Shown: positions 6,415 through 31,330 of the stretch, in pieces
How the letters are laid out: each line of letters starts with the position of its first letter
How positions within the stretch are numbered: position 1 is the stretch's first letter
Assembly: GCA_021805805.1 (NCBI GenBank)
Contig: JAJZEB010000028.1
Span: 1 to 32,294, forward strand
Source: Pseudomonadota bacterium
GTDB taxonomy: Bacteria > Pseudomonadota > Gammaproteobacteria > Burkholderiales > Burkholderiaceae_C
Direction of reading: 5' to 3'
Length of the DNA: 32,294 nucleotides
Notes under the pieces: generated by a model
What the model saw: only the letters and a program-made list of their open reading frames with translations
What the model was told of the DNA's origin: nothing
Database searches by the model: none
Program-made: the position numbers and the translations under genes

Positions 6415-6428
6415 CGAGTCGACTGCGT

Positions 6429-14814: not shown

Positions 14815-14829
14815 TTCTGCGTAGCAGAA
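14815..14829. promoter_or_regulatory. Operator-like palindrome TTCTGC-GTA-GCAGAA (liv/SDR copy)
   Basis: This is a perfect 6-bp inverted repeat with a 3-base spacer in the region between the SDR and liv genes. The same design occurs at 27173-27187 and 31316-31330 upstream of two beta-oxidation operons. It is a candidate binding site for the IclR regulator encoded at 27371-28261. Confidence 0.6.
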
Positions 14830-14943
14830 CTACGTTGCCCAAGCTTGTCCGCATGAACCCATTCGCCATCGGCTTGTGCTGTTCATATCGAAACACGATA
14901 ACTAATTGATTGAACTGATGTTTGTCGCTTCTTTGCCGCGAAA

Positions 14944-14972
14944 TTGATCGCTGTCTGGCGCTTCAGTATTTT
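14944..14972 (+). promoter_or_regulatory. Candidate sigma-70 promoter of the liv operon
   Basis: TTGATC (14944-14949) and TATTTT (14967-14972) are 17 bases apart. The transcript would start near 14979, with a leader of about 150 nt to the livH start. It lies about 115 bp downstream of the shared palindrome. Confidence 0.45.
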
Positions 14973-15129
14973 CCCTAGAGTGACTGCACAGCAGAATCGG
15001 TTGCCAAATAGGCTCTTCGCACAGCGCGATCAAGGGTCGACTCCGTCGCCCATCGCAACGGCACGCGGCATGCGGGAATCGTCGTCGCGATGGTGCAGGT
15101 CAACGGCTTATCGCGGACAGGAGATCACG

Positions 15130-15999
15130 GTGGATTTGCTATTGCAGCAATTGCTCAACGGCGTGACGCTGGGCAGCGTGTACAGCCTCGTCGCGCTGGG
15201 GCTCACCCTCGTCTACGGGATTCTCGCCATCCCGAACTTCGCGCACGGCGCGCTTTACATGGTCGGCGCCTTCGCGTCGTTCTACCTGACGTCGGCGCTT
15301 GGTCTCGGCTACTGGAGTGCGATGCTCGTGTCCGCGGCCTGCGTCGCGCTGCTCGCCGTCGTCGCCGAGCGCCTCGTGTTTCACCCCCTGCGCAACGCGC
15401 CGGAGCTGTCGCCGATGATCGCGGCGATCGGCTTGCTGCTGTTTCTCGAAGCCGGCGCGCAAGCGTTGTGCGGCGCCAACTACCACCGGATGTCATCTCC
15501 GTATTCCGGCGTGATGCACTGGGGCGGCGTGATCGCGCCGACGCAGCGCCTGCTGATCATCGCCGGCGCGTTCGTGCTCGTTGCCGCGCTGCAGCTGTTC
15601 CTGCATCGCACCGTGCTCGGCGCGTCGATCCTCGCGGTCGCGCAAAACCGCGAAGGCGCCTTGCTCGTCGGCATCGATCCGACAAGGGTCGGAATGGCCG
15701 CGTTCGCACTGTCCGGCGCGCTCGCGGCAGTCGCCGCCACGCTGTATGCGCCGATCAACCTCGTCTACCCGACGATGGGCGATCTCGTGATCCTGAAGGC
15801 GTTCGTGATCATCATTCTCGGCGGCATGGGAAGCGTGCCCGGCGCGATTGCAGGCGGCCTCATCATCGGGCTCGCCGAAAGCCTCGGCGCGTTCTACATA
15901 TCGCCTGACTACCAGGACCTGATCGCGTTCGTGCTGCTCGTCGCGATCCTGTCGCTGCGCCCGCAAGGCCTGTTCGCGAAGCAGGTGCGCGCAGCATGA
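15130..15999 (+). CDS. livH: Branched-chain amino acid-type ABC transporter permease LivH
   Basis: This 289-residue inner-membrane permease has multiple hydrophobic helices and family motifs GVTLGSVYSLVALGLTLVYG, IPNFAHGALYMVGAF near the N-terminus and ILGGMGSVPGAIAGGL near the C-terminus. The start is GTG at 15130, with AGGAG at 15119-15123; the longer frame from 14944 adds a non-hydrophobic, promoter-containing segment and is rejected. The stop overlaps livM in an ATGA. Liv-type systems also carry aromatic acids and other carboxylates, so the substrate need not be an amino acid. Confidence 0.93.
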   Translation: MDLLLQQLLNGVTLGSVYSLVALGLTLVYGILAIPNFAHGALYMVGAFASFYLTSALGLGYWSAMLVSAACVALLAVVAERLVFHPLRNAPELSPMIAAIGLLLFLEAGAQALCGANYHRMSSPYSGVMHWGGVIAPTQRLLIIAGAFVLVAALQLFLHRTVLGASILAVAQNREGALLVGIDPTRVGMAAFALSGALAAVAATLYAPINLVYPTMGDLVILKAFVIIILGGMGSVPGAIAGGLIIGLAESLGAFYISPDYQDLIAFVLLVAILSLRPQGLFAKQVRAA

Positions 16000-16991
16000 A
16001 ACCAACCCGTCCCTACGGCTGGATCGCACTCTTTGCCGCCGGGCTCGTCCTGCCGGCGCTGCTCCGGAACGACTACTCGCTGACGGTGATGTCGACCGCC
16101 TACATCTTCGCGCTCGCGACGGTCGGCCTGAACCTGATCACCGGTTACACCGGCCAGTTCAACCTCGCGCACGGCGGCTTCCTCGCGATCGGCGCCTACA
16201 CCGTCGGCATCCTCACCGTCGACCATCAGCTTCCGTTCTGGCTCGCGTTCGTGCTCGGCGGCGCCGTCACCACCGTGCTCGGCCTGCTCGTCGGCATGCT
16301 GTCGCTGCGCCTGAGGGGCCACTACTTCTCGATTTTCACGATGTGCGTCGGCTACCTCATCTATCTGGTGATCCAGAAGTGGAATGGTCTCACGCACGGC
16401 GTCGTCGGCATCATCGGCATTCCGGCGCCTCCGCGCGTCGGCCCGGTGTCGTTCCAAAGTCCGCTCGCGCTCTACTACCTGACGTTCGCGTTTCTCGCGG
16501 CCGGCACGTGGATCATGGGCCGCATCGTCAACTCGCTGCTCGGCCGGACGTTTACCGCGATCCGCAACGGCGAGCATCTCGCGCAGGCGCTCGGAATCAA
16601 TGCGATGCGAAACAAGCTGCTCGCATTCCTCATTTCCTCGTTCTATGCGGGAATCGCAGGCGGCCTGTACGCGGGCTTCGTCCGCTTCATCGGCCCCGAT
16701 CTCGCCGGCATCGACCACACGTTCGACATGACGATGTACATGGTCGTCGGCGGAATCGGCACCCTTGCCGGTCCGCTGATCGGCGCGCTCCTGCTGCCGT
16801 GGATCACGCAGTACCTGCAGTTCATGCAAACGTACCGATTCATCGTCTTCGGTCCGCTGCTGATCGCGCTGCTGATTTTCCTGCCGCACGGAATCGTCGG
16901 CCTCTATCGCAGCATCCGGATCAAGTGCGATGCGCGTCGCGCCTCGCCGGCCGCGGCCACGCGGATCACGCGCGGAGACGGTCATGCTTGA
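15996..16991 (+). CDS. livM: Branched-chain amino acid-type ABC transporter permease LivM
   Basis: This 331-residue second permease has the family motif LNLITGYTGQFNLAHGGFLAIGAY near the N-terminus, and the C-terminal part holds MVVGGIGTLAGPLIGALLL. Several hydrophobic helices are evident. The ATG at 15996 overlaps the livH stop. The C-terminal tail after residue 310 is polar and arginine-rich (cytoplasmic). The 3' end overlaps livG by 8 nt, so the genes are tightly coupled. Confidence 0.93.
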   Translation: MKPTRPYGWIALFAAGLVLPALLRNDYSLTVMSTAYIFALATVGLNLITGYTGQFNLAHGGFLAIGAYTVGILTVDHQLPFWLAFVLGGAVTTVLGLLVGMLSLRLRGHYFSIFTMCVGYLIYLVIQKWNGLTHGVVGIIGIPAPPRVGPVSFQSPLALYYLTFAFLAAGTWIMGRIVNSLLGRTFTAIRNGEHLAQALGINAMRNKLLAFLISSFYAGIAGGLYAGFVRFIGPDLAGIDHTFDMTMYMVVGGIGTLAGPLIGALLLPWITQYLQFMQTYRFIVFGPLLIALLIFLPHGIVGLYRSIRIKCDARRASPAAATRITRGDGHA

Positions 16992-17751
16992 GATCGAGAA
17001 CGTCAGCAAGCGCTTCGGCGGGCTGCTCGCGGTCAGCGACGTCAGCACCCGCATCGCCGCTGGCCGGATCAATGCGATCATCGGCCCGAACGGCGCTGGC
17101 AAGACGACCTTCTTCAACCTGATCAGCGGAATGTACCGGCCGACGGCAGGCACCATCCGCCTGCGCGGCGAGGACGTGACCGGCCTGCCAGCCGACCGGA
17201 TGGCGCGACTCGGCGTCGCGCGCACGTTCCAGGCGACCGCGCTGTTCGAGCACGCAACCGTCCTCGACAACCTGATCGTCGGACACCGGCTGCGTACGCG
17301 CTCAGGCCTCTGGGACGTCCTGCTGCGCACGCGGCGATGTCGGGCGGAGGAGCGCCTGTGCCGCGAGAAGGCGCGTTGCGCGCTCGACTTCGTCGGCCTC
17401 GAGCACATCGAGGAGCGACGCGCCGGCGACATCACGCAGGAACAGCGCAAGCGCGTCGCGATCGCGCTCGCCCTCGCGACCGAACCCGAACTGCTGCTGC
17501 TCGACGAGCCGGCGGGCGGCGTCAACCCCGAGGAAACAGACGGGCTCGCCGCGCTGATCCGCAAGATCGCGAACCGCGGAATCACGGTCTGCCTCGTCGA
17601 GCACAAGATGCGCATGATCATGAGCCTTGCCGACAGGATCACGGTGCTCGACCACGGCGAGAAGATCGCCGAAGGCACTCCCGATGAGATCCGTACCGAA
17701 CGGGCGGTGATCGACGCCTATCTGGGGAGCGATCATGCTGACGTTCAGTGA
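16984..17751 (+). CDS. livG: ABC transporter ATP-binding protein LivG
   Basis: This 255-residue nucleotide-binding subunit has Walker A GPNGAGKTT near residue 35, Walker B LLLLDEPAGGVNPEE and a switch His in LVEHKMRMIM. The signature stretch reads DITQEQRKRVAIALAL, so the usual LSxGQ is replaced by ITQEQ; a modified signature ending in RKR is not rare in LivG-like proteins. The start ATG at 16984 lies inside the end of livM. The 3' end overlaps livF by 17 nt. Confidence 0.92.
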   Translation: MLEIENVSKRFGGLLAVSDVSTRIAAGRINAIIGPNGAGKTTFFNLISGMYRPTAGTIRLRGEDVTGLPADRMARLGVARTFQATALFEHATVLDNLIVGHRLRTRSGLWDVLLRTRRCRAEERLCREKARCALDFVGLEHIEERRAGDITQEQRKRVAIALALATEPELLLLDEPAGGVNPEETDGLAALIRKIANRGITVCLVEHKMRMIMSLADRITVLDHGEKIAEGTPDEIRTERAVIDAYLGSDHADVQ

Positions 17752-18442
17752 CGTGCGTCTCGAATACGGCAGCTTCCGCGCGCTGCACGGAATCAATCTG
17801 CACGCGAACGACGGCGAACTCGTCGTCCTGCTCGGCGCGAACGGGGCCGGGAAGAGCACGATATTCAACGCCGCGAGCGCGCTGCGCCGCATCAGCGGCG
17901 GGCACATCCTCCTGAAGGGTGCCGACCTCGCAAGCATGAAGCCGGCAGACGTCGTGCGCGCTGGCGTGATCCAGTGCCCCGAGGGCCGCAAGCTGTTCCC
18001 TGCGCTGTCGGTGCGGAAGAATCTGATCCTCGGCGCGTACATCCACCGCCGCGACAAGGCCGGCAATCGCAAGCGGCTCGACGAGGTGCTCGCATTGTTC
18101 CCCGCGCTCGGTGATCGGCTCGACGACGCGGCAGGCGCGCTTTCCGGCGGGCAGCAGCAGATGGTCGCGATCGGTCGCGCGCTGATGGGGCGGCCGCGCG
18201 TGCTGTTGCTCGACGAGCCGTCGCTCGGACTCGCGCCGCTCATCGTCAAGCAGATGTTCGAAGTCATCAAGGCGATCAACCGCTCCGGGACCACCGTGCT
18301 GCTGGCCGAACAGAACGCGCACGCCGCACTGCAGATCGCGCATCGCGCGTACGTCGTCGAAAGCGGGCGCATCGTCCTCGAAGGCACCTACGAAAGCCTG
18401 TCCGGAAACGAGGCGATGCGACGCGCGTACGTCGGCGGCTGA
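17735..18442 (+). CDS. livF: ABC transporter ATP-binding protein LivF
   Basis: This 235-residue nucleotide-binding subunit has Walker A GANGAGKST, canonical signature LSGGQQQM, Walker B VLLLDEPSLGLAP and the LivF-typical QCPEGRKLFPALSVRKNL segment. It starts within the end of livG and is followed after 66 bp by the binding-protein gene. It pairs with LivG to drive the LivH/LivM channel. Confidence 0.94.
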   Translation: MLTFSDVRLEYGSFRALHGINLHANDGELVVLLGANGAGKSTIFNAASALRRISGGHILLKGADLASMKPADVVRAGVIQCPEGRKLFPALSVRKNLILGAYIHRRDKAGNRKRLDEVLALFPALGDRLDDAAGALSGGQQQMVAIGRALMGRPRVLLLDEPSLGLAPLIVKQMFEVIKAINRSGTTVLLAEQNAHAALQIAHRAYVVESGRIVLEGTYESLSGNEAMRRAYVGG

Positions 18443-18508
18443 CCCGCGGCTGACCCAATACCCGGGCCGCGGCCGGCGTTACCGCGGGAACTTCCAAGGA
18501 GGATCAGT

Positions 18509-19672
18509 ATGTCGACGAAGAAATTGACCTTGTCACTCGTTGCCGCGCTCGTCGCGGCCGCTCCGGCGCTGGCTCAGGAAACCGTGAACATCGGCTATTC
18601 GGGACCGCTCAGCGGCGGTGCCGCGCAGTACGGCGAAGCCGTGCTCGAGGGCATGCAGATGGCTGCCGCCGATCTCAATCGGGCCGGGTTCGACATCGCC
18701 GGCAAGAAGGTCCGGTTCCACATCGTCGCCCTCGACGACCAGTACAACCCGAGCGAAACCGCGATCAACGTGCGCCGCCTGGTTCAGGAAGACGGTACAG
18801 CCGTGATCCTGTGCCCGCATTCGGGCGGCGACTACGCGATCCAGATGACCAACCGGTCGCAGAACCTGCTGCTGCTCGCTTACACGAGCGTGCCGCAGAT
18901 CACGGCACGACGCAATCCGCTGACGATCCGCATTCCGCCGAAATTCACGCTGTACATGGCTCCGTTCATCCATTACGAAATGGCGCATTACGGCAAGGCG
19001 GTCGCGATCGCGAACACCAACACCGATTACGGCAACGCCTGGGCGAATGCGTTCGAGCCGGCCTGGAAGGCGGCGGGCGGCACGATCGTCTCCGACACCC
19101 AGATGTCGTACAACAGCGCGGCCGACTTCTACAGCAGCGTGAGCCGCGCGATCGCGGCGAAGCCCGATGTGATGTTCGTCGGCGGCCCGTCGCAGCCGAC
19201 CGGCCTGGTCGTCAAGCAGGCGCGCGAACTCGGCTTCAAGGGCGGCTTCATCGTGATGGATCAGGCGAAGTTGGACGAAGTCGCGAAGGCTGCTGGCGGC
19301 GACCAAGCGCTCGACGGCGCAATCGGCGTCATGCCGCTCGTCGACGATCAGACGCCGGCCGCGAAATCGTTCGTTGCACGGTTCCGCAAGACGCATGACG
19401 GCCGCACTCCGTCGCAAGAGGAAGCTCTGAACTATACGGCGGTCTGGGCGACTGCCTATGCGATGAAGATCGCCGGCACGACGACCGATGGCAAGGCGAT
19501 CCGCAGTGCCTTCGGTCAGGCGCTGAAGTCGTTGCCGCCGCAGGACGACCCGGACGACCTGACCGGAGTCGACGCGGAAGGAGGCGCGACGATGGGCAAG
19601 ATCCCGCTTGCCGTCGTCGAGAACGGCCGGATCGAGCCGTACGCCGACGTCGAGCAAACCGCCGCGAAATAA
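18509..19672 (+). CDS. Periplasmic substrate-binding protein of the Liv-type transporter
   Basis: This 387-residue type I periplasmic binding protein (LivK/ANF-receptor family) starts with a signal peptide, MSTKKLTLSLVAALVAAAPA, with likely cleavage after ALA at about residue 22. The mature start ETVNIGYSGPLSGGAAQYGE is typical. An excellent ribosome site AAGGAGG precedes the ATG. Placement at the end of livHMGF identifies it as the receptor of this importer. The ligand cannot be read from the sequence; the shared operator with beta-oxidation operons suggests the acid they degrade. Confidence 0.92.
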   Translation: MSTKKLTLSLVAALVAAAPALAQETVNIGYSGPLSGGAAQYGEAVLEGMQMAAADLNRAGFDIAGKKVRFHIVALDDQYNPSETAINVRRLVQEDGTAVILCPHSGGDYAIQMTNRSQNLLLLAYTSVPQITARRNPLTIRIPPKFTLYMAPFIHYEMAHYGKAVAIANTNTDYGNAWANAFEPAWKAAGGTIVSDTQMSYNSAADFYSSVSRAIAAKPDVMFVGGPSQPTGLVVKQARELGFKGGFIVMDQAKLDEVAKAAGGDQALDGAIGVMPLVDDQTPAAKSFVARFRKTHDGRTPSQEEALNYTAVWATAYAMKIAGTTTDGKAIRSAFGQALKSLPPQDDPDDLTGVDAEGGATMGKIPLAVVENGRIEPYADVEQTAAK

Positions 19673-19724
19673 TGCAGCGCGGCGGGCATCGAGCGTCTCG
19701 ATGATCTGGCGGTAGACCTCGGCG

Positions 19725-20705
19725 TCAGCCGCGCGGCAAGACCACGATCTTGCCCATCGCCCGGCGTTCCGCCAGACGCGCGATGGCGTCGGCCGCGCCG
19801 GCCAGGGGCACCTGCTCGGTCACCGGCGGCTTCACCTTGCCTGCCTTGAACCAGCCAGCGAGCTGCTGCAGGTCGGCCAACAGCTGCCTGGGTTCCCGGG
19901 CCATGGCCGCGCCCCAGAACACGCCCAGGATGGCCCGTTCCTTGAGCAGGGCGAGGTTCAGCGGCAACTTGGGAATCTCGCCCGCCGCAAAGCCCACGAC
20001 CAGATAGCGCCCGCGCCACGCCGTGGCGCGCAGGGCCGGTTCGGCGTACTGGCCGCCGACCGCGTCGTAGACCACATCGACCCCATTGCCATCGGTCAGG
20101 CGCTCCACCTCGCGGCGCCATTCGGGTTGGGTGTAGTCGACGGTCTCGTCGGCACCGGCCCGCCTGGCCAGCGCGCGCTTCTCGTCGCTCGAGGCCGCCG
20201 CGATCACGCGCGCGCCGAGCGTCTTGGCGATCTCGATCGCAGCGATGCCCACCCCGCCGGCGGCACCGAGGACCAGAAGGGTCTCGCCGGCACGCAGTCG
20301 GCCGATGGTCTGCAGTGCGTGCAGCGAGGTGCCATAGACCAGCACGAAAGAAGCCCCGGCCGCGTAGTCCATGCCGTCGGGCAAGGGAATGACCCTCGAC
20401 GCATCGACCGCGGCCTGTTCGGCGAACGCGCCGGTGCCGGTCGAGCAGGCCACGCGGTCGCCGACCTTCACATGCGCCACGCCATCGCCGACGGCACAGA
20501 CGACGCCGGCCAGTTCGGCGCCGGGCGTGAATGGCAGCGGCGGCTTGACCTGGTAGAGGCCTTGCACCATGAGGGCGTCCGGGAAATTGATCGAGGCGGC
20601 GTGCACGTCCACCAGCACCTGGCCGGCGGATGGCACAGGCGCGGGTATGTCTTCGACACGCAGCGCGTCGATGGGGCCAAAGGCGTTGCAGCGCAGGGCT
20701 TTCAT
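19725..20705 (-). CDS. NADPH:quinone oxidoreductase family protein (zinc-free MDR)
   Basis: This 326-residue medium-chain reductase of the QOR type has an N-terminal GroES-like domain (ASINFPDALMVQGLYQVKPP), a nucleotide motif GAAGGVG, and no structural zinc cysteines. It would reduce quinones or activated enones with NADPH. The ATG at 20705 has AGGAGACC upstream. It is the last gene of the operon that begins at 27103 and is convergent with the liv operon. In this setting it could act on an enoyl intermediate, which is inference. Confidence 0.9.
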   Translation of the reverse strand: MKALRCNAFGPIDALRVEDIPAPVPSAGQVLVDVHAASINFPDALMVQGLYQVKPPLPFTPGAELAGVVCAVGDGVAHVKVGDRVACSTGTGAFAEQAAVDASRVIPLPDGMDYAAGASFVLVYGTSLHALQTIGRLRAGETLLVLGAAGGVGIAAIEIAKTLGARVIAAASSDEKRALARRAGADETVDYTQPEWRREVERLTDGNGVDVVYDAVGGQYAEPALRATAWRGRYLVVGFAAGEIPKLPLNLALLKERAILGVFWGAAMAREPRQLLADLQQLAGWFKAGKVKPPVTEQVPLAGAADAIARLAERRAMGKIVVLPRG

Positions 20706-20757
20706 GGGGCAGGTCTCCTGGAAATGGGGCGAAGCGGATGGGGTCAGTCGAACACGA

Positions 20758-22458
20758 TCATGTCGCTTGTCCTGACTGGTCCTGCTGGTTCTGGCGCTGC
20801 TGCAACTGGCGCCACATGATCTTGCCGGCGCCCGACTTGGGCAGGGACTCGGCGAATTCGACGATGCGCGGACTCTTGTACGCCGCCATGCGATCATGCG
20901 CCCAATCGGCGATCTCCTGCTCGTGCACCTGCCCTCGGTGTTCCGGCCGCAGCACGACCACGGCCTTCACGGTCTCACCGCGTTTTGCGTCGAGTGCGCC
21001 GATGACGCAGACCTCCAGGATGGCCGGATGCTGGTGCATGAGGGCTTCCACCTCGGCAGGCCAGACTTTGTAGCCCGACGCGTTGATCATGCGTTTGAGG
21101 CGGTCGATCATGAAAAAATACCCGTCCTCGTCGACGCGTGCGAGGTCGCCGGTGCGCAGGAAGCGCAGGCCGTCGATCTCGATGAAGGCCTCGGCCGTGG
21201 CCTTCTCGTTGCGCCAGTAGCCGCGCATCACCTGCGGCGCGCGAACCACGAGCTCGCCGGTCCGACCCTGCGGCAGTTCCTGCAGGCTTGCCGCATCGAC
21301 GATGCGCGCGTCGACGCCGAACACCGGAATGCCCAGGCATTGCGGTTTGGGGCGTTGCGGCGGGTTGATGTGGGTGGCGGCCATGGTCTCGGACATGCCG
21401 TAGCCTTCCACATAGTCGAGCCCCAGCAGGTCCCTGAGCTTCTCGGCCACCGCCGCCGGCATGGCGGCACCGCCGCCGCGGATGCGGCGCAGCTGCGAGA
21501 GATCGTAGTCGCCGATTCGCGGATTCGCCAGGAAATCCACCACCATGGTGCTGATGGCCTGCCAGCCGGTGATTCCGTGGCGCTGCATCAGCGCGGCGGC
21601 TTTCTCGCGGTCCCAGCGCGACATGACCACGGTGGTTCCGCCCACGAACAGCGGCCCGTTCATTCCGCCGGCCATGCCGGTGACGTGGAAGAAGGGCAGC
21701 ACCGAGAGCACGACCGAGTCCTGGTTCCACGCGAACCACTGCATGCCTCCGATGGCGGTGCACTGCGCGCTGCGGTGCGTGTGCATGCAGCCCTTGGGGT
21801 GGTCGGTGGTGCCGGAGGTGTACGGCATCACGCACAGATCGTCGGGGCCGGCGGTGTGCGGGCCCGGTGCGTGGTTCGCGGCCAGTGCGTCCGACCATGC
21901 GTGCAGGCCGGCGCCGTGCATGCGCTGGCGCGGCGCGGTCACGAAAGCGGGCAGTCGCAGGTCGGTGGCGGTGTGCAGGTAGTCGCTGTAGGTGGCGACC
22001 ACCAGATGGTCGAGCGCGTCGGCAAGCGGAGCGCCGTGGGCGCTGTGGTGGGGTCTCAGCTCCGCCAGCAGGTCCTGCGCGGTGATGGCCACGCGCGCGC
22101 CGGTGTCGGCCACGTAGTGCCCCAGCTCCCCGGCCAGGTTCATCGGATTGACGGGCACCACCACCGCGTTGGCGCGCAGGATCGCGTAATAGCCGATCAT
22201 CCATTGCGGGCTGTTCTGCAGGTACAGCAGGACACGGTCGCCGGCGCGTACGCCGCAGACGTGTTGCAGGTGGCCGGCCAGGCGCTCGGCCTCGTCGCGA
22301 AAGCGGGCGAAACTCAGCGGCGAGTCGTAGTAGACGATGAACGGCTTGTCGGGATAGCGCCAGGCGGAGACCTCGGCGTTGAACCACAGGCTGGTTTCGG
22401 GCAGCGTCAGTTGCCGGGGCAGGCTCGGCGGCCAGTGGCCGTGGGCGGACATGTTCAT
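20758..22458 (-). CDS. AMP-forming acyl-CoA ligase
   Basis: This 566-residue member of the ANL adenylating superfamily activates a carboxylic acid with ATP and CoA. The P-loop motif is [11 protein letters not shown] (213-223), the mid motif is GYGMSET, the hinge region is [20 protein letters not shown], and the catalytic lysine is Lys546 in SGAGK. The ATG at 22458 overlaps the TGA of the acyl-CoA dehydrogenase remnant. The same frame is open back to 22590, across that remnant, so a 44-residue N-terminal extension is possible. In a pim-type pathway this would be the entry step; LvaE of levulinate catabolism is an alternative analogue. Confidence 0.92.
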
Positions 22459-22590
22459 TTCCGCCGCGCCAGCAGCGGCTTGAGCCAGCGCTCCTGCTGC
22501 GCGGGCGTTCCGTAACGCGCGATGGTTTCCATGTTGCCGGTGTCGGGCGCCGAGCAGTTGAAGGGATCGGAGCCGATGTTCGAAATCCAT
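22455..22590 (-). pseudogene. Remnant of an ACAD10/11-type acyl-CoA dehydrogenase
   Basis: The minus strand encodes [20 protein letters not shown], then [13 protein letters not shown], and stops after RRK. The [12 protein letters not shown] segment is diagnostic of the ACAD10/ACAD11 clade, where about 300 further residues with the catalytic and FAD sites should follow. An ATG at 22590 begins MDFEH, like the start of such enzymes, but in another frame, so sequence between the N-terminus and this internal segment is also lost. About 30 homologous residues remain of a protein of about 400. It sits directly after the APH-family kinase gene, where an intact copy is expected. Confidence 0.8.
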
Positions 22591-22618
22591 TGGGAGCTCG
22601 GCAAGGTGGACAAGGAGG

Positions 22619-23692
22619 TCAGAGGCTGCTGGCCAGCGCCCAGGCCTGTTCGGCCAGCGGGCGGGCGCGTCTGCCCGTTTCCACAGCGCTCGCGTTGGAG
22701 GCGTTGCCCAGCTGGGCGCGCCTGGCGATGCCCTGCAGGATGCCGACCAGGCGGAACATGCTGAACACCATGTAGTAGTTCCAGTCGCGTGCCGGAACGG
22801 CCGCGCTGCGCCCGGTGCGCGCGAGGTGGCGTGCCAGGTAGCTCGCTTCGCCTGGAATGCCCAGGGCCGCGATGTCCACGCCCGCCAGCCCGCGCAAGGA
22901 CGCGGGCATGCGCCAGGTCAGGCAGTGGTAGGCAAGGTCCACCAACGGGTCGCCCAGGGTCGAGAGCTCCCAGTCGAGAACGGCCAGGATGCGCGGTTCG
23001 GTTGGGTGGAAGATCACGTTGTCGATCCGGTAGTCGCCGTGCACGATGCAGGTCTCGCCGTCGGCCGGCATGTGCCGCGGCAACCATTGCATCAGCCGGT
23101 CGGCAGCCTCGATGGGCTCGGTTTCGGCAGCCTTGTACTGCCGCGTCCAGCGCGCCACCTGGCGCTCCAGGTAGGCTCCGGGGCGGCCATAGTCGGACAG
23201 CCCAACCGCGGCCGGTCTGACCTGGTGCAGGGCGGCGAGCACGCGGTTGAGCTCGTCGAAGATCGCGCCGCGTTCAGCCGGTGTCATGCCGGGCAGGGTC
23301 GGGTCCCAGAAGATACGGCCTTCGACATGGTCCATGACGTAGAAGGCCGATCCGATGACTGCGGGGTCTTCGCACAGGGCGTGCACCCTCGCCACCGGAA
23401 CTTCGGTTCCGGCCAGCTCCCGGATGACGCGGTATTCGCGATCCACCGCGTGTGCCGACGGCAACAGCTCGCCCATCGGCTTGCGTCGCAGCACGTAATG
23501 TCGATCGCCGCACGTCAGCAGAAAGGTCGGGTTGGATTGCCCTCCCTTGAATTGCATCACGCTCAGGGGACCGCTGAAGCCCGGCACGTGGCCCTGCATC
23601 CAGGCGGCCAGGCTGGCTTCGTCGAAGCGGTGCACCGGGCTTGGCGGCTGTGTGCCGGCGAACTGCCCCTGCGGCGATGGGCTGGCGCGCAT
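22619..23692 (-). CDS. APH-family kinase, ACAD10/11-domain or LvaA type
   Basis: This 357-residue protein has an aminoglycoside-phosphotransferase-like fold. It contains [10 protein letters not shown] (48-57), VLRRKP near 67-72, the catalytic loop HGDYRIDN (218-225) and the metal-binding Asp240 ([12 protein letters not shown]). This is the subfamily fused to acyl-CoA dehydrogenase in mammalian ACAD10/11 and free-standing as LvaA in Pseudomonas levulinate catabolism, where it phosphorylates 4-hydroxyacyl-CoA so that a dehydrogenase-like partner can remove phosphate. The partner here is only a remnant. The gene looks intact. It is not expected to confer aminoglycoside resistance. Confidence 0.88.
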
Positions 23693-23698
23693 GGCAGC

Positions 23699-23809: not shown

Positions 23810-23811
23810 GG

Positions 23812-24990
23812 TCAGCACAGCTCGAACAGACCGGCAGCGCCCTGGCCGCCGCCGATGCACATGGTCACCACCACGTATTTCGCGCCACGGCGCCTGCCCT
23901 CGATCAGCGCATGGCCGACCAGGCGCGCTCCCGAGACGCCGTAGGGATGGCCGACGGCGATGGCGCCACCGTTGACGTTGAGCAGCTCGTCCGGGATTCC
24001 CAGTCTGTCGCGGCTGTAGATCACCTGGCAGGCAAAGGCCTCGTTGAGTTCCCAAAGGCCGATGTCCTCGACTTTCAGGCCCGCGCGCTGCAGCAGGCGC
24101 GGCACCGCGAACACCGGGCCGATACCCATTTCATCGGGCTCGCAGCCGGCCACCGCGAAGCCGCGGAAGATGCCCAGGGGCTGCAGGCCCAGCTGTTCTG
24201 CACGCTTGCCGTTCATCACCACGCAGGCCGATGCGCCGTCGGAGAACTGGCTCGCATTGCCGGCCGTGATCACTCCGCCGGGAAGCGCCGGGCGGATGCT
24301 CTGCACGCCTTCGATCGTGGTGTCCGCACGAATGCCTTCGTCCGCATCGATGGTGACTTCGCGGGTGGTGATGCGACCGCTGGCCTTGTCCATCACGCCC
24401 ATGACGGTGGTCATGGGAACGATCTCGTCCTTGAACCTGCCGGCAGCCTGCGCGGCGGCTGCGCGCCGCTGGCTGCGCACGCCGTACTCGTCCTGCGCCA
24501 GCCTGGAGATGCTGTAGCGCTGGGCGACGGTCTCGGCTGTCTGCAGCATGCTCCAGTACAGCTCGGGTTTGTGCTCGACCAGCCAGGGGTCGCGGCGCAT
24601 ATGGGCGTTCGACTCGTTCTGCACACAGCTGATGCTCTCCACGCCACCGGCGACGATCGCCGGCACGCCCTCGACCATCACGCGCTGCGCGGCCATGGCG
24701 ATGGTCTGCAGGCCTGACGAGCAGAAGCGATTCACGGTCATGCCGGCAACCGTCACCGGAAGCCCGGCCCGCAATGCAATGGCGCGGGCGATGTTGCCGC
24801 CGGTGGTGCCTTCGCCGAAGGTGCCGCCCATGATGCAGTCCTCGATTTCGCCGGGGTCGATACCCGAGCGCTGAACCGCGTGCCGCACGGCGTGGCCTCC
24901 CAGCGTGGCGCCATAGGTCATGTTGAAAGCGCCCTTCCAGCTCTTGGCCAGTCCGGTGCGCGCGGTGGAAACGATCACGGCGTCGATCAT
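23812..24990 (-). CDS. Acetyl-CoA acetyltransferase / 3-ketoacyl-CoA thiolase
   Basis: This 392-residue thiolase has catalytic Cys90 (NRFCSSGLQ), His348 (GHPYG) and Cys378 ([11 protein letters not shown]), at nearly the same positions as in the Zoogloea enzyme. It cleaves 3-ketoacyl-CoA at the end of beta-oxidation (PimB-like role in context). The ATG at 24990 has GGAG upstream within GAGGAGC. It follows the hydratase/dehydrogenase gene by 25 nt. Confidence 0.94.
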
Positions 24991-25015
24991 GAAATGCTCC
25001 TCGGGGTTCTGGATG

Positions 25016-27103
25016 TCAGGCGAAGCTCCGGCCTTCTTCGGCGAGCTTGCGCAACAGCGGGGCCGGTTGCCACCAGTCGAAGGCGCCTGGCTCGGCAGCG
25101 AAGCGGCGCAGCGTGCGCACCACGTTGAACAATCCCACCTCGTTGGCGTAGCACATGGGCCCGCCGCGGCGCGCTGGGAAGCCATAGCCGTTGAGATAGA
25201 CCAGGTCGACGTCCGAGGCGCGCACGGCGATGCCTTCGTCGAGGATGTGCGCGGCCTCGTTGACCAGCGCGAACACGCAACGCTGGACGATTTCCTCGTC
25301 GCTCACCGTGCGTGCGCGCACGCCCCTGGCGATGCGGTAGTCGGCCACGATCCGGTCGACCACCGGGTCGGGCAGGGCCTCGCGGGCGCCGGGCAGGTAG
25401 CGGTACCAACCGGCACCGGACTTCTGTCCGAAGCGGCCGAGTTCGCACAGCTTGTCGGCCACGACCGGGTCGTGCGGCACGCCGGCTTCGGCGGCCTTGC
25501 GCTTGCGCGTGGCCCAGCCGATGTCCAGGCCCGCCAGATCGTTCATGCGGAACGGGCCCATGGCAAAGCCGAAGCGCTCCAGCGCCTGGTCGATCTGCTG
25601 TGGCGTGGCACCGGCGACGATGAGCGCATAGGCCGCTGCGCCATAGCGCGCCAGCATGCGGTTGCCGATGAAGCCGTCGCAGACAGCCGAGACCACCGAG
25701 ACCTTGCGGATCTGCTTGCCCAGGGACATCGCGGTCACCATCACGTCGTTGGCGGTTTGCTCGCCACGCACGATCTCCAGCAGGCGCATGACGTTGGCCG
25801 GGCTGAAGAAGTGCAGGCCCAGGACGTCCCGCGGGCGGCTGGTGAAGCCGGCGATCGTGTTGATGTCGAGGTACGAGGTGTTGGACGCCAGAATGGCGCC
25901 GGGCCTGCAGACCGCGTCAAGCTGCCTGAACACCTTTTCCTTCACGTCCATCTGTTCGAACACCGCTTCGATCGCCAGGTCAACGTCCTTGAAGTCAGCG
26001 TAGTCGAGCGTCGGGGCGATCAGGGCCATGCGCTGTTCCACCTGCTCGGTGGTCAGCCTGCCGCGCCTGGCGCTGTTGTCGTAGTTGCGGCGGATGGTGG
26101 CCAGCCCCCGGTCGAGCGCCTCCCGATCGGCTTCCAGCAACACCACCGGAAGGCCGACGTTCAGGAAGTTCATGGTGATGCCTCCACCCATGGTTCCGGC
26201 ACCCACGACACCCACCTTCCGGATGGGGCGCGACGGTGTGTCGGCCGCAATGTCGGGCAGCTTGCCGGCGGCGCGCTCGGCCGCGAACACGTGGCGAGCC
26301 GCGCGTGACTCGGGGGTGTTCATCAACGCGAAGAACGCCGCGCGTTCGCGTCGCAGGCCTTCGTCGAAAGGCTGGGTCACGCTGTCGGCCACGGCTTCCA
26401 TGCAGGCCAGCGGTGCGGGAAGTCCCTTGGCCGCTGCCTTCACGTTGGTGCGGGCGAACTGCAGGAACGCGTCGGTGCCGGCGGTCGGCATGTTCACGTC
26501 GCGCAGGCGGCGCAGCGGCCGGCCTTCGGCGACAACCTGTTCCGCCAAGGCCACTGCCGCGGCGAGCACGTCGGTGTCCACCACCTGGTCGAGCAGGCCG
26601 GTGCCTTCGAAGGTGGCGGCCTTCTGCGGCGCACCCGAGACGATCATGTTCAGCGCCGCTTCGAGCCCGATGGCGCGCGGCAGCCGCTGCGTGCCGCCGG
26701 CGCCGGGCAGCAGACCGAGCTTGACTTCGGGCAGGCCCAGGGTGGCGTCTTTGTGCGCCACGCGGAAATGGCAGCCCAGTGCAAGTTCGAGCCCGCCCCC
26801 CAGGGCATGCCCCGCGATGGCGGCCAGCACCGGCTTGCCGGAGTTCTCCAGCGCATGGATCACGTCGGGAAGGTGGGGCGACATGGACGAACGCGGCGTG
26901 CCGAACTCGCGCACGTCGGCTCCGCCGGAAAACTGCCGCTCGCCACCGGTGAGCACGATGGCGGTGACGGCCGGGTCGGCCAGGGCGCGGTCGAGCCCGT
27001 CGACGATGCCTGTGCGCAGTGCGTGTCCCAGGCCGTTGACGGGCGGGTTATGCAGGGTGAGCACGGCCACCGGGCCGTGCAAGGTGTAGTCGACCGTGTT
27101 CAC
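25016..27103 (-). CDS. Fused enoyl-CoA hydratase / 3-hydroxyacyl-CoA dehydrogenase
   Basis: This 695-residue bifunctional beta-oxidation enzyme is of the PimF/FadJ type. The N-terminal crotonase domain has Glu106 and Glu126 (GGGLELALG and [11 protein letters not shown]), both needed for hydration. The dehydrogenase domain begins near 295 with the NAD motif GAGTMG (301-306) and has the catalytic His431 and Glu443 ([15 protein letters not shown]). A duplicated C-terminal helical domain follows to the end. It is the first gene of an operon with the thiolase, kinase, ligase and oxidoreductase. A palindrome shared with two other promoters lies 70-84 bp upstream. Confidence 0.95.
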
Positions 27104-27172
27104 GGGTGTCTCCGTTGTCGGAAGAGAAGGGTGCCTCGGCCATGGGTCGCCCCACGCCTGGGTTCAGCAAAG

Positions 27173-27187
27173 AACTGCATTGCAGAA
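27173..27187. promoter_or_regulatory. Operator-like palindrome (hydratase/dehydrogenase operon copy)
   Basis: AACTGC-ATT-GCAGAA, one mismatch from the symmetric TTCTGCNNNGCAGAA. On the minus strand it follows directly on a possible -10 hexamer TATGTT (27186-27191), the same layout as at 31316-31334. It shares the 14-mer GTTCTGCAATGCAG with the copy at 31316-31330. A clear -35 element is not seen. The rest of the 267-bp gap between 27104 and 27370 holds no recognised gene. Confidence 0.65.
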
Positions 27188-27370
27188 CATAGTTTCATCG
27201 GTTAGCGCATCATAACGGCAATCGATTCGCGCAACCATGTCATGCTCGCCACCCCGCGCGGCGAACGCAGCCACCTGATCAACAACGGCCAGAAGTGCTG
27301 GCGCAGCAGGCGCTGGCGCGCGTAGGGCCGGTGCCCGGACGCGAAGGCCAAGTGCCGGCGGCTCGCGTCT

Positions 27371-28261
27371 TCAACGAGGCAGCGTGTCCTCGATCAAGCG
27401 CACGACCTCCAGCAGACGCGGACGCACCTCGCCGAGCAGGAACTCGGGCGAGAGGTTGTACGACGGACCGCCGACGTTGACGGCCATGAGCGGCAGGCCG
27501 TTGCCCGGGTCGAAGGCACGCGCAATGCCGTTGACCTCCTTGTTCCAGTCGCCGAACGAGCAGGCCACGCCCAGCGTGCGGTAATCCTCGATCGCCTTGT
27601 TCACGCCAGCCTGGATGCCGGGCCAGGCCAGGTGGTCGAGTTCGCGAATCTGTTCCAGCGCCTGCTCGCGCTCGGTCGCGGACACGGAGGCCAGCCAGGC
27701 GCGCCCCATGGCCGAGGTTGCCAGCGGCATGCGCGAACCCACGTCCAGCGTGAGTGTGAGCGCTGCGCTGCTGCGGCAATTCTCCAAATAGATCATCGAA
27801 AGCTTGTCGCGAACGCCCAGCGACACTGCAGCGCCGGAAAAATTGGCCAGATCCTGCATCATCGGGCGTGCGATCTTGCGCACGTCCAGCCGCGTGAGCA
27901 GCGCGCTTCCCAGCGCCAGGCAGGCGGTACCCAGACGGTAGCGCCCGCTTTCCTTCACATGGATCAGGTAGCCCAGCTTGGTCAGCGTCATCGTCAGGCG
28001 CGAGACCGTGGACTTGGGCAGCGCGCAACGAACCGCGAGTTCCTGGTTGCTCAGGGTCGTCTCGCCGTTGCGGAAGCACGCCAGAACCTCCAGGCCGCGC
28101 GCCAGCGCCGTGACGAAGTGGCGATCTTCCTTGGGCTTGCAGGCGGGAGCCGGGCGCTTGGGAGGGGCGGTGCGTTCGGCGGTGCCCACCGCGGGTGCCG
28201 CCGGCGCGGGCGGGGCGGTGTCTGGGTTCAAAATGGATCTCCGTTCTGCAACACGAGACAT
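27371..28261 (-). CDS. IclR family transcriptional regulator
   Basis: This 296-residue regulator has an extended Pro/Ala-rich N-terminus (about 50 residues), a winged helix (ALARGLEVLACFRNGETTLSN, then LPKSTVSRLTMTLTKLGYL) and the IclR effector domain (GSRMPLATSAMGRAWLASVS, then GVNKAIEDYRTLGVACSFGDW). The ATG at 28261 has no strong ribosome site. A TTG at 28231 preceded by GGAG is a possible alternative start, trimming the disordered N-terminus. It lies between two catabolic operons on the same strand, so it is the obvious candidate to bind the palindromes shared by them. A half-site GTTCTGCAA lies at 28243-28251 near its own start. Confidence 0.92.
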   Translation of the reverse strand: MSRVAERRSILNPDTAPPAPAAPAVGTAERTAPPKRPAPACKPKEDRHFVTALARGLEVLACFRNGETTLSNQELAVRCALPKSTVSRLTMTLTKLGYLIHVKESGRYRLGTACLALGSALLTRLDVRKIARPMMQDLANFSGAAVSLGVRDKLSMIYLENCRSSAALTLTLDVGSRMPLATSAMGRAWLASVSATEREQALEQIRELDHLAWPGIQAGVNKAIEDYRTLGVACSFGDWNKEVNGIARAFDPGNGLPLMAVNVGGPSYNLSPEFLLGEVRPRLLEVVRLIEDTLPR

Positions 28262-28307
28262 CACTGTACCCGGATCGTCCAGAGGCCAAATTGGGAGCTT
28301 TCATCAG

Positions 28308-28327
28308 GGTATACCTGAGCATACCTG
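28308..28327. repeat. Tandem decamer repeats upstream of the iclR gene
   Basis: GGTATACCTG (28308-28317) is followed directly by AGCATACCTG (28318-28327); ATACCTG recurs with a 10-bp period, one helical turn. GGTATACC is itself palindromic. The site is 47-66 bp upstream of the regulator start and may be an operator or activator site for it. Confidence 0.45.
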
Positions 28328-28352
28328 TCGCTGCTCGACCGCGCGCTGACGC

Positions 28353-28829
28353 TCAGGGGTAGTGGCGCGACACCATCTCGGCCACGCAGGCCGGCTTGCT
28401 GCTGCCTTCGACTTCCACCAACGCCTGCCAGACCACCTGGGCGCCGCCGTGCGGCAGCGCTTCAACGGCCTGCAGCGTGAAGCGCGCGCGAATGCGGTCG
28501 TCGACTCGCACCGGCGCCATGAAACGCACCCGGTTGAGGCCGTAGTTCACCGCCATGCGGGTGCCGTGCACGGTGATGCAGCCTTCCGACAGAGCCGGCA
28601 GCAGCGACAGCGTCAGATAGCCATGCGCGATGGTCGTGCCGTAAGGCGATTCCCGGCGGGCGCGCTCAGGGTCGACGTGAATCCACTGCAGGTCGCCGGT
28701 GACTTCGGCGAAGCGGTTGACCCGTTCCTGGGTGATCGGCATCCAGTCGCTGACGGCAAGCTCTTCGCCGACGAGCGCGGCCAGAGCGTCCAGGCTCCGG
28801 GCCTCGAAAACCTGCTTGCCGGTGTCCAT
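28353..28829 (-). CDS. MaoC-type (R)-specific enoyl-CoA hydratase
   Basis: This is a 158-residue hot-dog-fold protein. The hydratase-2 motif is visible, with Asp46 and His51 (GDLQWIHVDPERA) followed by GTTIAHGYLTLSLLP. It hydrates a 2-enoyl-CoA with R stereochemistry. The ATG at 28829 or the GTG just before it at 28832 could start translation; both lie at the edge of a perfect hairpin (28831-28858) and no normal ribosome site is present. It is the third gene after the acyl-CoA dehydrogenase pair and supplies a hydratase besides the fused enzyme. Confidence 0.9.
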   Translation of the reverse strand: MDTGKQVFEARSLDALAALVGEELAVSDWMPITQERVNRFAEVTGDLQWIHVDPERARRESPYGTTIAHGYLTLSLLPALSEGCITVHGTRMAVNYGLNRVRFMAPVRVDDRIRARFTLQAVEALPHGGAQVVWQALVEVEGSSKPACVAEMVSRHYP

Positions 28830-28830
28830 C

Positions 28831-28858
28831 ACAGCGCCAGCACCCGTTCTGGCGCTGT
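28831..28858 (-). repeat. Perfect 10-bp hairpin abutting the maoC start codon
   Basis: ACAGCGCCAG (28831-28840) and CTGGCGCTGT (28849-28858) form a perfect inverted repeat with an 8-base loop, directly next to the ATG at 28829. It lies in the 118-bp gap after the acyl-CoA dehydrogenase gene. In RNA it would sequester the translation-initiation region. No U-run follows, so a terminator role is unlikely. Confidence 0.7.
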
Positions 28859-28947
28859 TGCGCCCTCCACTGCGACAGGGTCGAACGGGTTCATGCGCAT
28901 CCTTGCGTTGGAGGAGGTGTCCGCGCCGCGAGCGTCGCGGGGCGGGT

Positions 28948-30078
28948 TCAGTCGGCGCCGAGCGCGACGTAGCGCGCGAGGTGGTGGTCCTCGTCGCCGA
29001 ACTGGTGGTCGATCATCACCAGGCGCTTGGCGTAATGGGCCAAGGGCAGCTCCCAGGTCATTCCGATGCCGCCGTGCATCTGGATGCTCTCTTCGGCCGT
29101 GCGGGTGCCGACTCGCCCGATGGTGTACTTCGCGGCCGACAGCGCGCGCTCGCGTGTGGTTCGATCGGCGTTCATCGCGGCAGCTGCGTTGATCACCGCC
29201 GAGCGCGCCTGCTCGATGTCCAGCAGCACGTCGGCCATGCGGTGCTGCAGGGCCTGGAAGCTGCCGATGGGTACGCCGAACTGTCGGCGTGTGCGCAGGT
29301 AGTCAAGCGTATGTTGCCTGGCGACGTCCATCGCCCCCACGGCTTCGGCGCACAGCGCCAGCAGACCCCAACCCACCGCCTGCTCCAGCACGGCCAGGCC
29401 ATGGCCCTCCTCGCCCAGCAGTGCGGTGGCGGGCAATGGCACCTTGTCGAACGTCAGTTCGGCCACACGGCCGCCATCGACGCGGCGATAGCCCTGCCGG
29501 GTGATTCCCGTCGTGTCGGCAGGCACGAGGAACAGGGAGATGCCGTTTTCGTCGTCCACCCCAGCGCTGCTGCGGGCGCTGACGAGCAGCAGGCCAGCGG
29601 CTTCGCCGTGCAGCACCACGCCCTTGGTGCCGTCGAGCCGGTACCCGTCGGCGGTCTTTGTGGCCTGCAGTCCCACGTAGGCCAGTTCGTAGTGTCCGCC
29701 GGCTTCGTCGTGTGCCAGGGCCGCGACAGTGCTGCCGTCCAGGATGCCGCCGAGCCGGGCCTTGTGGGCGTCGCTGCCCGCGGCGACGATGGCGCGACCC
29801 ACCACCAGCGCACCCAGGAAAGGTTCGATGACCAGGCCCTTGCCCAGGTGCTCGAACACCACGGCCACGTCGAAGGCGTCGCCCCCGAAGCCGCCCACGT
29901 CTTCGGGGAACAGCGCACCGATTGCGCCCAGCGCGGAAAGGCCGTTCCAGACTTCGGCGCTGTAGCCGGTTGCCGATTCCGCGGCGGCGTGGCGCGCCGC
30001 GATGGGGTACTGCTCGGCGAGGAATCGGTCCAGAGTGTCGGCGAGCATGCGCCGGTCTTCGGTGTGTTCAAAGTTCAT
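28948..30078 (-). CDS. Acyl-CoA dehydrogenase, PimD-like small subunit
   Basis: This 376-residue acyl-CoA dehydrogenase begins MNFEHTEDRRMLADTLDRFL, like PimD-type subunits. FAD-domain landmarks are RTRRQFGVPIGSFQALQHRM and the C-terminal QMHGGIGMTWELPLAHYAKR. The residue aligned with the catalytic Glu of the partner lies in LLALCAEAVGAMD and is not clearly retained. In known heteromeric acyl-CoA dehydrogenases such as ChsE4-ChsE5, one subunit provides the base and FAD sits at the interface. The gene starts 9 bp after its partner's stop, supporting an alpha2beta2 enzyme. Confidence 0.9.
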   Translation of the reverse strand: MNFEHTEDRRMLADTLDRFLAEQYPIAARHAAAESATGYSAEVWNGLSALGAIGALFPEDVGGFGGDAFDVAVVFEHLGKGLVIEPFLGALVVGRAIVAAGSDAHKARLGGILDGSTVAALAHDEAGGHYELAYVGLQATKTADGYRLDGTKGVVLHGEAAGLLLVSARSSAGVDDENGISLFLVPADTTGITRQGYRRVDGGRVAELTFDKVPLPATALLGEEGHGLAVLEQAVGWGLLALCAEAVGAMDVARQHTLDYLRTRRQFGVPIGSFQALQHRMADVLLDIEQARSAVINAAAAMNADRTTRERALSAAKYTIGRVGTRTAEESIQMHGGIGMTWELPLAHYAKRLVMIDHQFGDEDHHLARYVALGAD

Positions 30079-30087
30079 GGTCGCGCG

Positions 30088-31284
30088 TCACAGTCCGAGG
30101 ATCATCTTGGAGATGATGTTCTTCTGGATTTCGTTGGAACCACCGAAAATCGACAGCTTGCGGTGGTTGAAGTACTGGGAAGCGGCGACCTTGGCTTCTT
30201 CGGGTCCTGACCATGGGCCTGCGTAACCTGCATGCAGGGCCTCTTCGACGAAGGCCAGCGCGTAGGGCCCCATCGCGCGGCGCATCAGCGAGAGCATTTC
30301 CTGGCGGATCTCCGTGCCGCGGATCTTGAGCATGGAACTCTCCGCGCCCGGCACGCCGCCGCCTTCCGCGGCGACGATCATGCGCAAGTTGGTGGTCTTC
30401 ATGTTCTCCAGGTCGATCTCGACCCTGGCAAGGCGGGTGGCGAACATCGGGTCCTGCAGCAGCGGCTTGCCCTTGTGCGTCACGCGCGAAGCCGCCGACT
30501 TGAGCTGCTCCAGTCCGGCGATCGAAAAGCCCACGCCAGCGATGTTGGTCCGCTCGTAGGTCAGCAGGTATTTCGCACAGGTCCAGCCCTTGTTTTCCTC
30601 GCCGACCAGGTTTTCCGCCGGAACCTTCACGTCGGTGAAGAACACCTCGTTGACCTCGTGTTCGCCGTCCAGCGTGATGATCGGACGCACATCGACTCCG
30701 GGGCTGTTCATGTCGATCAGCAGGAAGCTGATTCCCTCCTGCTTCTTGGCGTCGCGGTCGGTCCGCACCAGGCAGAAGATCATGTTGGCGTGCTGGCCCA
30801 GCGTTGTCCAGGTCTTCTGGCCGTTGACGACGTAGTGCTCGCCTTCGCGCACAGCCGTGGTTTTCACTCCGGCCAGATCGGAACCGGCTCCCGGTTCCGA
30901 GTAGCCCTGGCACCACCAGTCCTCGCCGCTGAGGATGCGCGGCAGCCAGCGGCGCTTCTGCGCCTCGCTGCCGTACCTGATCAGCACAGGGCCGAGCATG
31001 CCGACGCCGAAGGGCACGATGCGCGGCGTATGGGCCAGCGCGCATTCGAGTTCGAAAATGAACTTCTGCACCGCCGTCCAGCCCGGACCGCCGTACTGCA
31101 CGGGCCAGTGATTGGCCAGCCAGCCGCGGGCGTTGAGGATGCCGTGCCATTCCTCGATGTCGGCCTTGCTCAGGTGCAGGCCGTCGCGCACCTTGGACGA
31201 CAGCCGTTCGGGCAGGTGTCTCCGGAGGAAGTCGCGCACCTCGGCGCGAAAGGCCTCTTCCTCCGGAGTGAAGTTCAGATCCAT
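30088..31284 (-). CDS. Acyl-CoA dehydrogenase, PimC-like large subunit
   Basis: This 398-residue subunit resembles pimeloyl-CoA dehydrogenase large subunits: MDLNFTPEEEAFRAEVRDFL, WWCQGYSEPGAGSDLAGVKT, NGQKTWTTLGQHANMIFCLV and GEHEVNEVFF. Glu244 in LLTYERTNIAG is the probable catalytic base. The ATG at 31284 has GGAG six bases upstream, and the longer frame up to 31323 would include the operator. It is the first gene of an operon with the small subunit and MaoC. The pair would introduce the 2,3-double bond in an unidentified acyl-CoA; pimeloyl-CoA, other dicarboxylyl or alicyclic acyl-CoAs are candidates. Confidence 0.92.
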   Translation of the reverse strand: MDLNFTPEEEAFRAEVRDFLRRHLPERLSSKVRDGLHLSKADIEEWHGILNARGWLANHWPVQYGGPGWTAVQKFIFELECALAHTPRIVPFGVGMLGPVLIRYGSEAQKRRWLPRILSGEDWWCQGYSEPGAGSDLAGVKTTAVREGEHYVVNGQKTWTTLGQHANMIFCLVRTDRDAKKQEGISFLLIDMNSPGVDVRPIITLDGEHEVNEVFFTDVKVPAENLVGEENKGWTCAKYLLTYERTNIAGVGFSIAGLEQLKSAASRVTHKGKPLLQDPMFATRLARVEIDLENMKTTNLRMIVAAEGGGVPGAESSMLKIRGTEIRQEMLSLMRRAMGPYALAFVEEALHAGYAGPWSGPEEAKVAASQYFNHRKLSIFGGSNEIQKNIISKMILGL

Positions 31285-31315
31285 TCCATTCTCCGTCACT
31301 GAAAATGGTCCAGTG

Positions 31316-31330
31316 TTCTGCAATGCAGAT
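31316..31330. promoter_or_regulatory. Operator-like palindrome (acyl-CoA dehydrogenase operon copy)
   Basis: TTCTGC-AAT-GCAGAT, one mismatch from TTCTGCNNNGCAGAA. It overlaps the -10 element and predicted transcription start of the promoter at 31329-31357, the position expected for a repressor. Confidence 0.65.

Follow-up and report, generated by a model that had tools for sequence, protein, structure and literature searches.

A palindrome shared by a LIV-type importer and two beta-oxidation operons as the predicted operator of a local IclR-family regulator

The stretch of DNA considered here, called the window, is one whole contig (JAJZEB010000028.1; G000:C193 in our numbering) of 32,294 nucleotides from a Pseudomonadota bacterium with an assembled genome of 3.27 Mb in 211 contigs. 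Three sites in it carry a palindrome whose extended form, GTTCYGCNNNGCRGAAC, is the putative operator of the IclR-family regulator encoded at 27371-28264. The local IclR protein, the predicted binder at all three, very probably controls LIV-type import and coenzyme A (CoA)-linked beta-oxidation together. An IclR dimer would bind the sites at 14815, 27173 and 31316, bringing under joint control the LIV-type importer, the pimC/pimD/maoC operon and the fadJ-thiolase-kinase-ligase-reductase operon; the iclR gene, downstream of pimC/pimD/maoC, is perhaps subject to the same control. The regulator would most likely repress, perhaps by blocking polymerase, and would be released by the substrate or by the substrate's CoA ester. 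No published account of this regulon was found among the literature listings and article passages searched; the principle that a local IclR protein controls uptake and catabolism together is already well known, and the present case is a newly mapped example of it. The sites and the candidate regulator are as follows.

14815..14829, no strand: operator 1, the perfect copy TTCTGCGTAGCAGAA, within the 578 bp that separate livH from a divergent short-chain dehydrogenase/reductase (SDR) gene; 22.6 bits, rank 3 in the window
27173..27187, no strand: operator 2, on the minus strand TTCTGCAATGCAGTT, upstream of the fadJ-thiolase-kinase-ligase-reductase operon; 24.0 bits, rank 2
31316..31330, no strand: operator 3, ahead of the pimC-like gene; it overlaps the end of the -10 element; 27.0 bits, rank 1
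27371..28264, minus strand: IclR-family regulator, candidate binder, HTH_IclR and IclR_C domains (52.0 and 76.4 bits, both over the gathering scores)

All three sites sit where an initial annotation, made from the letters of the window, had placed them. Operator 1 matches the 15-mer TTCTGCNNNGCAGAA without a mismatch at its 12 specified positions, and operator 3 has the single mismatch that had been claimed; operator 2 was also credited with one but has two. The 14-mer GTTCTGCAATGCAG said to be common to the sites at 27173 and 31316 is present in the sequence. The palindromes are real and commoner than chance predicts: at up to two mismatches TTCTGCNNNGCAGAA has seven matches in the window, while 100 shuffles average 1.36 and never exceed 5. 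The other four lie at 6230 (one mismatch) and at 14982, 11111 and 12319 (two each). Genome-wide, TTCTGCNNNGCAGAA occurs at up to one mismatch in six places, three of them on this contig (14815, 31316 and 6230), and a reversed control pattern in two.

A matrix built from the relatives' sites only ranks the three sites first to third in the window (27.0 bits at 31314, 24.0 at 27171, 22.6 at 14813), followed by 6228 (10.6 bits), 14980 (10.2) and the half-site at 28242 near the iclR start (6.2). Random windows of the same composition, 300 in number, gave a top score of 21.7 bits, none reaching 22. The whole genome was searched with a profile of 70 relatives' sites, obtained from 75 by leaving out nine (the L059 artefact, the L088 site within maoC, one site of L167, two duplicates of which one is exact and one near, and four weak ones preceding the pimC-like gene in L138, L140 and L141) and adding four. 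Among the 150 of 1176 candidates scored, there were seven matches at E <=10, six of them both strands of the three main sites, which are accordingly the best whole-genome matches in the scan for stray copies that had been proposed. The seventh match, on contig C174, lies just upstream of a chemotaxis-receptor-like open reading frame (ORF) and near a transposase-like ORF. A de novo palindrome search returned TCCGCAN1TGCGGA first (55/88), TTCCGCN3GCGGAA second (51) and TTCTGCN3GCAGAA fourth (47); since GC-rich control palindromes reached up to 47/88 and the unrelated CGCCAGN12CTGGCG 48, this search by itself is only suggestive.

The iclR gene has matches at E <=1e-70 in 42 of 399 sampled family genomes, its own included, with orthologues 57-62% identical in 21 of 27 congeners and relatives of 46-89% identity in 11 named loci. 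For each locus, the window included, the 350 bp upstream were scanned for the closest match to GTTCYGCNNNGCRGAAC, with a cut at two mismatches or fewer. Excluded before counting were L133, whose contig is shared with L090, and L098 and L099, which extend the L036/L035 loci; the iclR count omits the artefactual, overlong L059 region, leaving 69 regions, and the pimC-like counts use a corrected gene start. A site precedes fadJ in 26/35 regions, livH in 16/20, iclR in 24/69 and the pimC-like gene in 18/36 (28/36 at up to three mismatches), and Markov resamplings of these four kinds of region averaged 0.1-1.1 matches. It precedes none of the 167 genes inside operons (thl 20, aph 30, pimD 34, livM 20, livG 21, livF 21, sbp 21), no adh (0/26) or acs (0/16), and one maoC of seven. 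These counts are partly circular, a point to be held against them, because the 17-mer consensus GTTCYGCNNNGCRGAAC was written after the congener loci had been inspected. The 15-mer, by contrast, was read from the window alone and its test outside the window is not circular: at up to one mismatch it recurs at fadJ in 20/34, at livH in 7/19 and at the pimC-like gene in 5/35 regions, and at 0/160 operon-internal genes, which bears out the conservation that the initial annotation had called for. The operator is found before orthologous operons and not inside them, strongly for fadJ and livH and in half of the pimC-like regions. Around operator 2, TTCTGCA and GCAG are invariant in eight aligned fadJ promoters; around operator 3, CTGCATTGCAGAA is invariant in four aligned pimC-like promoters. 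That the palindromes are chance or coding features of a high-GC contig has hardly any credibility in our view: weak matches are indeed mostly noise, since the 17-mer at up to three mismatches occurs 884 times in the genome and its reversed control 692 times, but no random window reaches 22 bits, no internal gene of the 167 has a site, and the three main sites are conserved upstream of orthologous operons.

Support for IclR as the predicted binder is indirect and comes from motif fit, from linkage to iclR and from covariation with one residue of the recognition helix. The group 1 motif of the family is GKTYCRYW3-4RYGRAMC, with a subgroup GTTYCRYW3RYGRAAC (Suvorova and Gelfand 2021, PMC8222616). 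The GTTCYGCNNNGCRGAAC sites agree with the subgroup motif (GTT-11-AAC) at all but one of the seven half-site positions; at the fifth, T has a frequency of 0.56 and C of 0.43, whereas in the published group 1 regulons this position is mainly C. Half-site, odd spacing and a local regulator are otherwise the same, and Liv transporter subunits are listed among the COGs that co-occur in IclR regulogs (PMC8222616). Polaromonas transporter genes likely regulated by adjacent IclR proteins are mentioned elsewhere as "not studied here" (PMC6449761).

Where the iclR orthologue is missing or unlinked, so, for the most part, is the site. In genomes without an iclR orthologue, a fadJ site was found in 2/9 loci, against 26/35, and liv operons unlinked to iclR have one in 1/8, against 16/20; the Fisher p-values, 0.007 and 0.002, are, like the locus comparisons, uncorrected for shared ancestry among loci. 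The nine fadJ loci omit L213 (fadJ-like gene 51% identical, best match four mismatches), and three of the nine genomes (G031, G032 and G034) carry an iclR homologue of 30-39% identity; two of the eight genomes with unlinked liv operons (G280 and G235) have an iclR orthologue elsewhere. In the four congeners with the binding protein (E <=1e-50), one contig carries both its gene and iclR, about 17-18 kb apart. Among 75 IclR sequences, serine at the sixth place of the recognition helix (PKSTVSRLT) goes with a site in 50/66 loci and threonine in 2/9, a covariation confounded by ancestry and gene content.

Several findings weigh against joint control by IclR. The genome-wide profile E-values of the three sites are weak (0.049-0.72), modest because the motif is so short. 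Plain mismatch counting is unselective: of the three sites, only 14814 is among the four genomic places where the 17-mer matches at one mismatch; the remaining two need two mismatches, as do dozens of places in the genome. The fadJ site is missing from 9/35 regions, seven of them from congeners (L042, L045, L048, L049, L050, L052 and L055), and only half of the pimC-like regions make the cut. The window's own iclR has just a half-site, the one that the initial annotation had announced there, which is the sixth best match in the window. Where no fadJ, pimC or livH was detected, a site lies near iclR in 7/25 loci (e.g., L139, L147, L150, L151 and L153), so that many iclR homologues are without one. 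Three sites have no detected linked iclR (L215, L217 and L223), though L223, one of the two fadJ exceptions, is a short contig from a genome 82% complete and its iclR may be absent from the assembly only. The sites at L215 and L217 would be explained if another transcription factor bound the palindrome and IclR were a mere neighbour; we regard this as improbable, because the palindrome fits the group 1 motif, the site is associated with iclR presence, and the seven iclR-only loci have it in the absence of detected target genes; other regulators in the relatives' loci were annotated only unsystematically.

Import raises a separate doubt. The initial annotation had put each copy upstream of an operon start, which is correct at close range for 27173 and 31316, while operator 1, at 308 bp from livH, falls beyond the -20 to -80 zone that is usual for IclR operators (PMC8222616). 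The livH start is most likely the GTG at 15130, preceded by GGAG, and the SDR gene starts on the opposite strand with the ATG at 14551, which places the site inside their 578-bp divergent region. The site, 271 bp from the SDR start, might serve that gene, the pimC and fadJ sites being IclR operators and import not co-regulated in this genome. Four of the 20 livH regions (L170, L174, L175 and L176) have nothing better than three mismatches although their genomes encode an IclR 76-84% identical to that of the window. This possibility is nevertheless an unlikely one: 16/20 liv loci of regulator-bearing genomes have a livH site, distant or paired liv sites also occur in L137, L142, L144 and L169 (two-site promoters in the first three), and a further, weak site is centred at -141 from livH. 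Control of the importer by IclR through operator 1 is the preferred reading. Two weaker matches follow.

14982..14996, no strand: possible weak second liv operator GACTGCACAGCAGAA, two mismatches to the 15-mer; 10.2 bits, rank 5; centre -141 from livH
28242..28260, no strand: IclR half-site near the iclR start; 6.2-6.3 bits, rank 6

Random windows average 0.72 positions at 10 bits or more, and therefore the 14982 site may be due to chance. Looping between tandem sites was considered and set aside, the spacings of paired liv and fadJ sites (about 113-198 bp) being too variable for such a claim. The liv promoters of L170, L171, L172, L174, L175 and L176 have an element like TTCCACTNTGCAG about 64-82 bp before livH, which may be a drifted operator.

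Promoter elements bear on how IclR would act at these sites. The candidates are two.

31329..31357, minus strand: promoter-like TTGTCC-17-GATAAT for the pimC-like gene; one found, 0.0 expected; ends in operator 3
27209..27237, minus strand: candidate fadJ promoter TGGTTG-17-TATGAT, aligned with the relatives' TATTAT; weak, judged by eye

The first bears out the claim that a -10 element (GATAAT) directly adjoins the 31316 site, and upstream of the pimC-like gene three relatives have GATAAT, CACAAT and TATAAT at the aligned -10 positions. The promoter alignment shows no conservation of TATGTT, the hexamer proposed as the -10 at 27173; seven of eight aligned fadJ promoters have a -10-like TATTAT (TATGAT in the window) about 20 nt upstream of the operator, and TATGTT is therefore probably not the -10. 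At the scan threshold nothing was found near fadJ, and near liv, the TAAATT at the liv copy included, the scan gave no promoter match. The co-regulation proposed by the initial annotation holds in substance, with corrections to the mismatch count at 27173, to the fadJ -10 element, and to the placing of the liv copy, which is distant and lies between divergent genes.

Most likely IclR acts as a repressor, because operator 3 extends over the -10 edge and the likely start site. PcaU and likewise PobR are activators, and the best NCBIfam match of the window's IclR, and hence its nearest named subfamily by profile, is the PcaR/PcaU/PobR group (TIGR02431; 114.4 bits, below the cut-off of 284.75), although its neighbours here are genes for acyl-CoA enzymes, not protocatechuate genes. 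An activator role of the PcaU kind is conceivable on these grounds but doubtful, as the placement of operator 3 over the -10 edge suits repression.

The genes that the three operators would serve, and the SDR gene beside them, are listed here.

13775..14551, minus strand: SDR gene divergent from liv, ATG at 14551; possible co-target of operator 1
15130..19672, plus strand: LIV-type ATP-binding cassette (ABC) importer livH-livM-livG-livF with periplasmic binding protein (profile matches)
19725..20897, minus strand: PIG3-like quinone oxidoreductase (profile match)
20758..22590, minus strand: acyl-CoA ligase (AMP-binding; N-terminus uncertain)
22619..23692, minus strand: APH-fold kinase like the ACAD11 kinase domain (8v3v, E 5.7e-87)
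23812..24991, minus strand: thiolase (PRK07108, above cut-off)
25016..27103, minus strand: FadJ-like enzyme, first gene of the fadJ operon (profile match)
28353..28832, minus strand: MaoC-like dehydratase, flanked by the pimCD-like genes and iclR (profile match)
28948..30078, minus strand: PimD-like acyl-CoA dehydrogenase (profile match)
30088..31323, minus strand: PimC-like acyl-CoA dehydrogenase, likely ATG at 31284

The fadJ operon runs on the minus strand from 27103 down to 19725, and the pimC/pimD/maoC operon, on the same strand, from 31323 down to 28353. The importer has the composition of the LIV type (HAAT), its single operon encoding two permeases, two ATPases and a Peripla_BP_6 protein; it scores below the cut-offs of both the branched-chain amino acid and the urea models, and no substrate is therefore assigned to it. 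The PimC-like and PimD-like enzymes also fall short of their models (479.2 against 623.85 for TIGR03204, 338.5 against 652.7 for TIGR03203). The kinase, which matches 3dxp as well (E 1.9e-142), is a candidate ACAD11/LvaA-type 4-hydroxyacyl-CoA kinase by the homology of its kinase domain to 8v3v. In two congeners (L059 and L061), SDRs encoded next to a different IclR paralogue are 74% identical to the SDR of the window.

Judged from enzyme families only, the substrate is probably a carboxylic acid, of either the dicarboxylic (pimelate, for example) or the 4-hydroxylated kind. For 4-hydroxy acids speaks the ACAD11-type kinase (PMC11342911). Dicarboxylic acids are suggested by the PimC/PimD-like enzymes together with a pimelate ABC transporter of Ralstonia CL21 (ABZR87_RS12600-20), next to which in locus-tag number stands a pimeloyl-CoA ligase, RS12625 (PMC12543098). 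That layout, in which the importer runs on to a CoA ligase, resembles sbp-acs in L137, L142 and L168, a likeness of layout alone; the passages on the Ralstonia transporter name no regulator for it. In the Lva operon and ACAD10/ACAD11 systems (PMC11342911), an ACAD11-type kinase likewise stands beside a CoA ligase, with ACAD and SDR genes as in relatives such as L083; the window differs in that its ACAD gene is only a remnant. With the ACAD-family gene of L083 (18556-19782, between kinase and CoA ligase) as query, the region 22461-22652 matches over only 63 residues (70%); a nearly full-length paralogue of the gene, 57% identical, is found on contig C125. The gap at 23692-23812 is without the SDR gene that L083 has between thiolase and kinase, and the SDR at 13775-14551 is a different one. 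The pim operon of Rhodopseudomonas palustris is pimFABCDE. The window has in common with it paired PimC/PimD-type dehydrogenases, a FadJ-like enzyme, a thiolase and a CoA ligase; here, by contrast, the genes are split between two operons and accompanied by the ACAD11-type kinase and the LIV importer, and PimC and PimD lie under the equivalog cut-offs.

The analysis supplies an operator matrix and target genes for this IclR orthologous group. It connects an importer of the LIV type, to which no substrate is assigned, with a pathway of beta-oxidation that includes an ACAD11-type kinase, which narrows the cargo, and could furnish a sensor part for carboxylic acids.

The identities of the linked genes differ in a way that bears on their origin. 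The product of iclR is 89% identical to that of Hydrogenophaga L083 and about 60% to those of congeners; the fadJ-to-adh block is 85-93% identical to the same Hydrogenophaga contig (thiolase 92-93%), and the catabolic block as a whole (19725-31323) 84-93% to Hydrogenophaga L083/L172. By contrast, the neighbouring liv genes of that Hydrogenophaga contig are only 69-71% identical, with the binding protein at 58-59%, and the window's trpB2 shares 95-98% identity with five of 24 congeners and 89% with a sixth. From this contrast between catabolic block, liv and trpB2, the catabolic block looks transferred and the liv block of different origin. Misbinning of the contig is unlikely in view of the trpB2 identity to five congeners, with the caveats that this is a single gene and that it is also 89% identical to one of six other-group genomes. 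A mosaic, in which a Hydrogenophaga-like catabolic block and a liv block of other origin were joined by a shared IclR operator after horizontal transfer, is a tentative suggestion and rather less probable than its opposite; if true, it would mean that a working import-plus-degradation regulon was assembled by matching operators.

The remaining matches in the window were rejected as members of the regulon. The one at 6230 (10.6 bits) lies within the ORF 5935-6315, which contains a phenol hydroxylase subunit domain, possibly upstream of the true start of this ORF, and those at 11111 and 12319 score 3.5 bits or less; chance is the best reading of all three. At 3069-8215, and with no clear link to the palindromes, phenol hydroxylase-like subunits adjoin a MobR-like sigma-54 activator.

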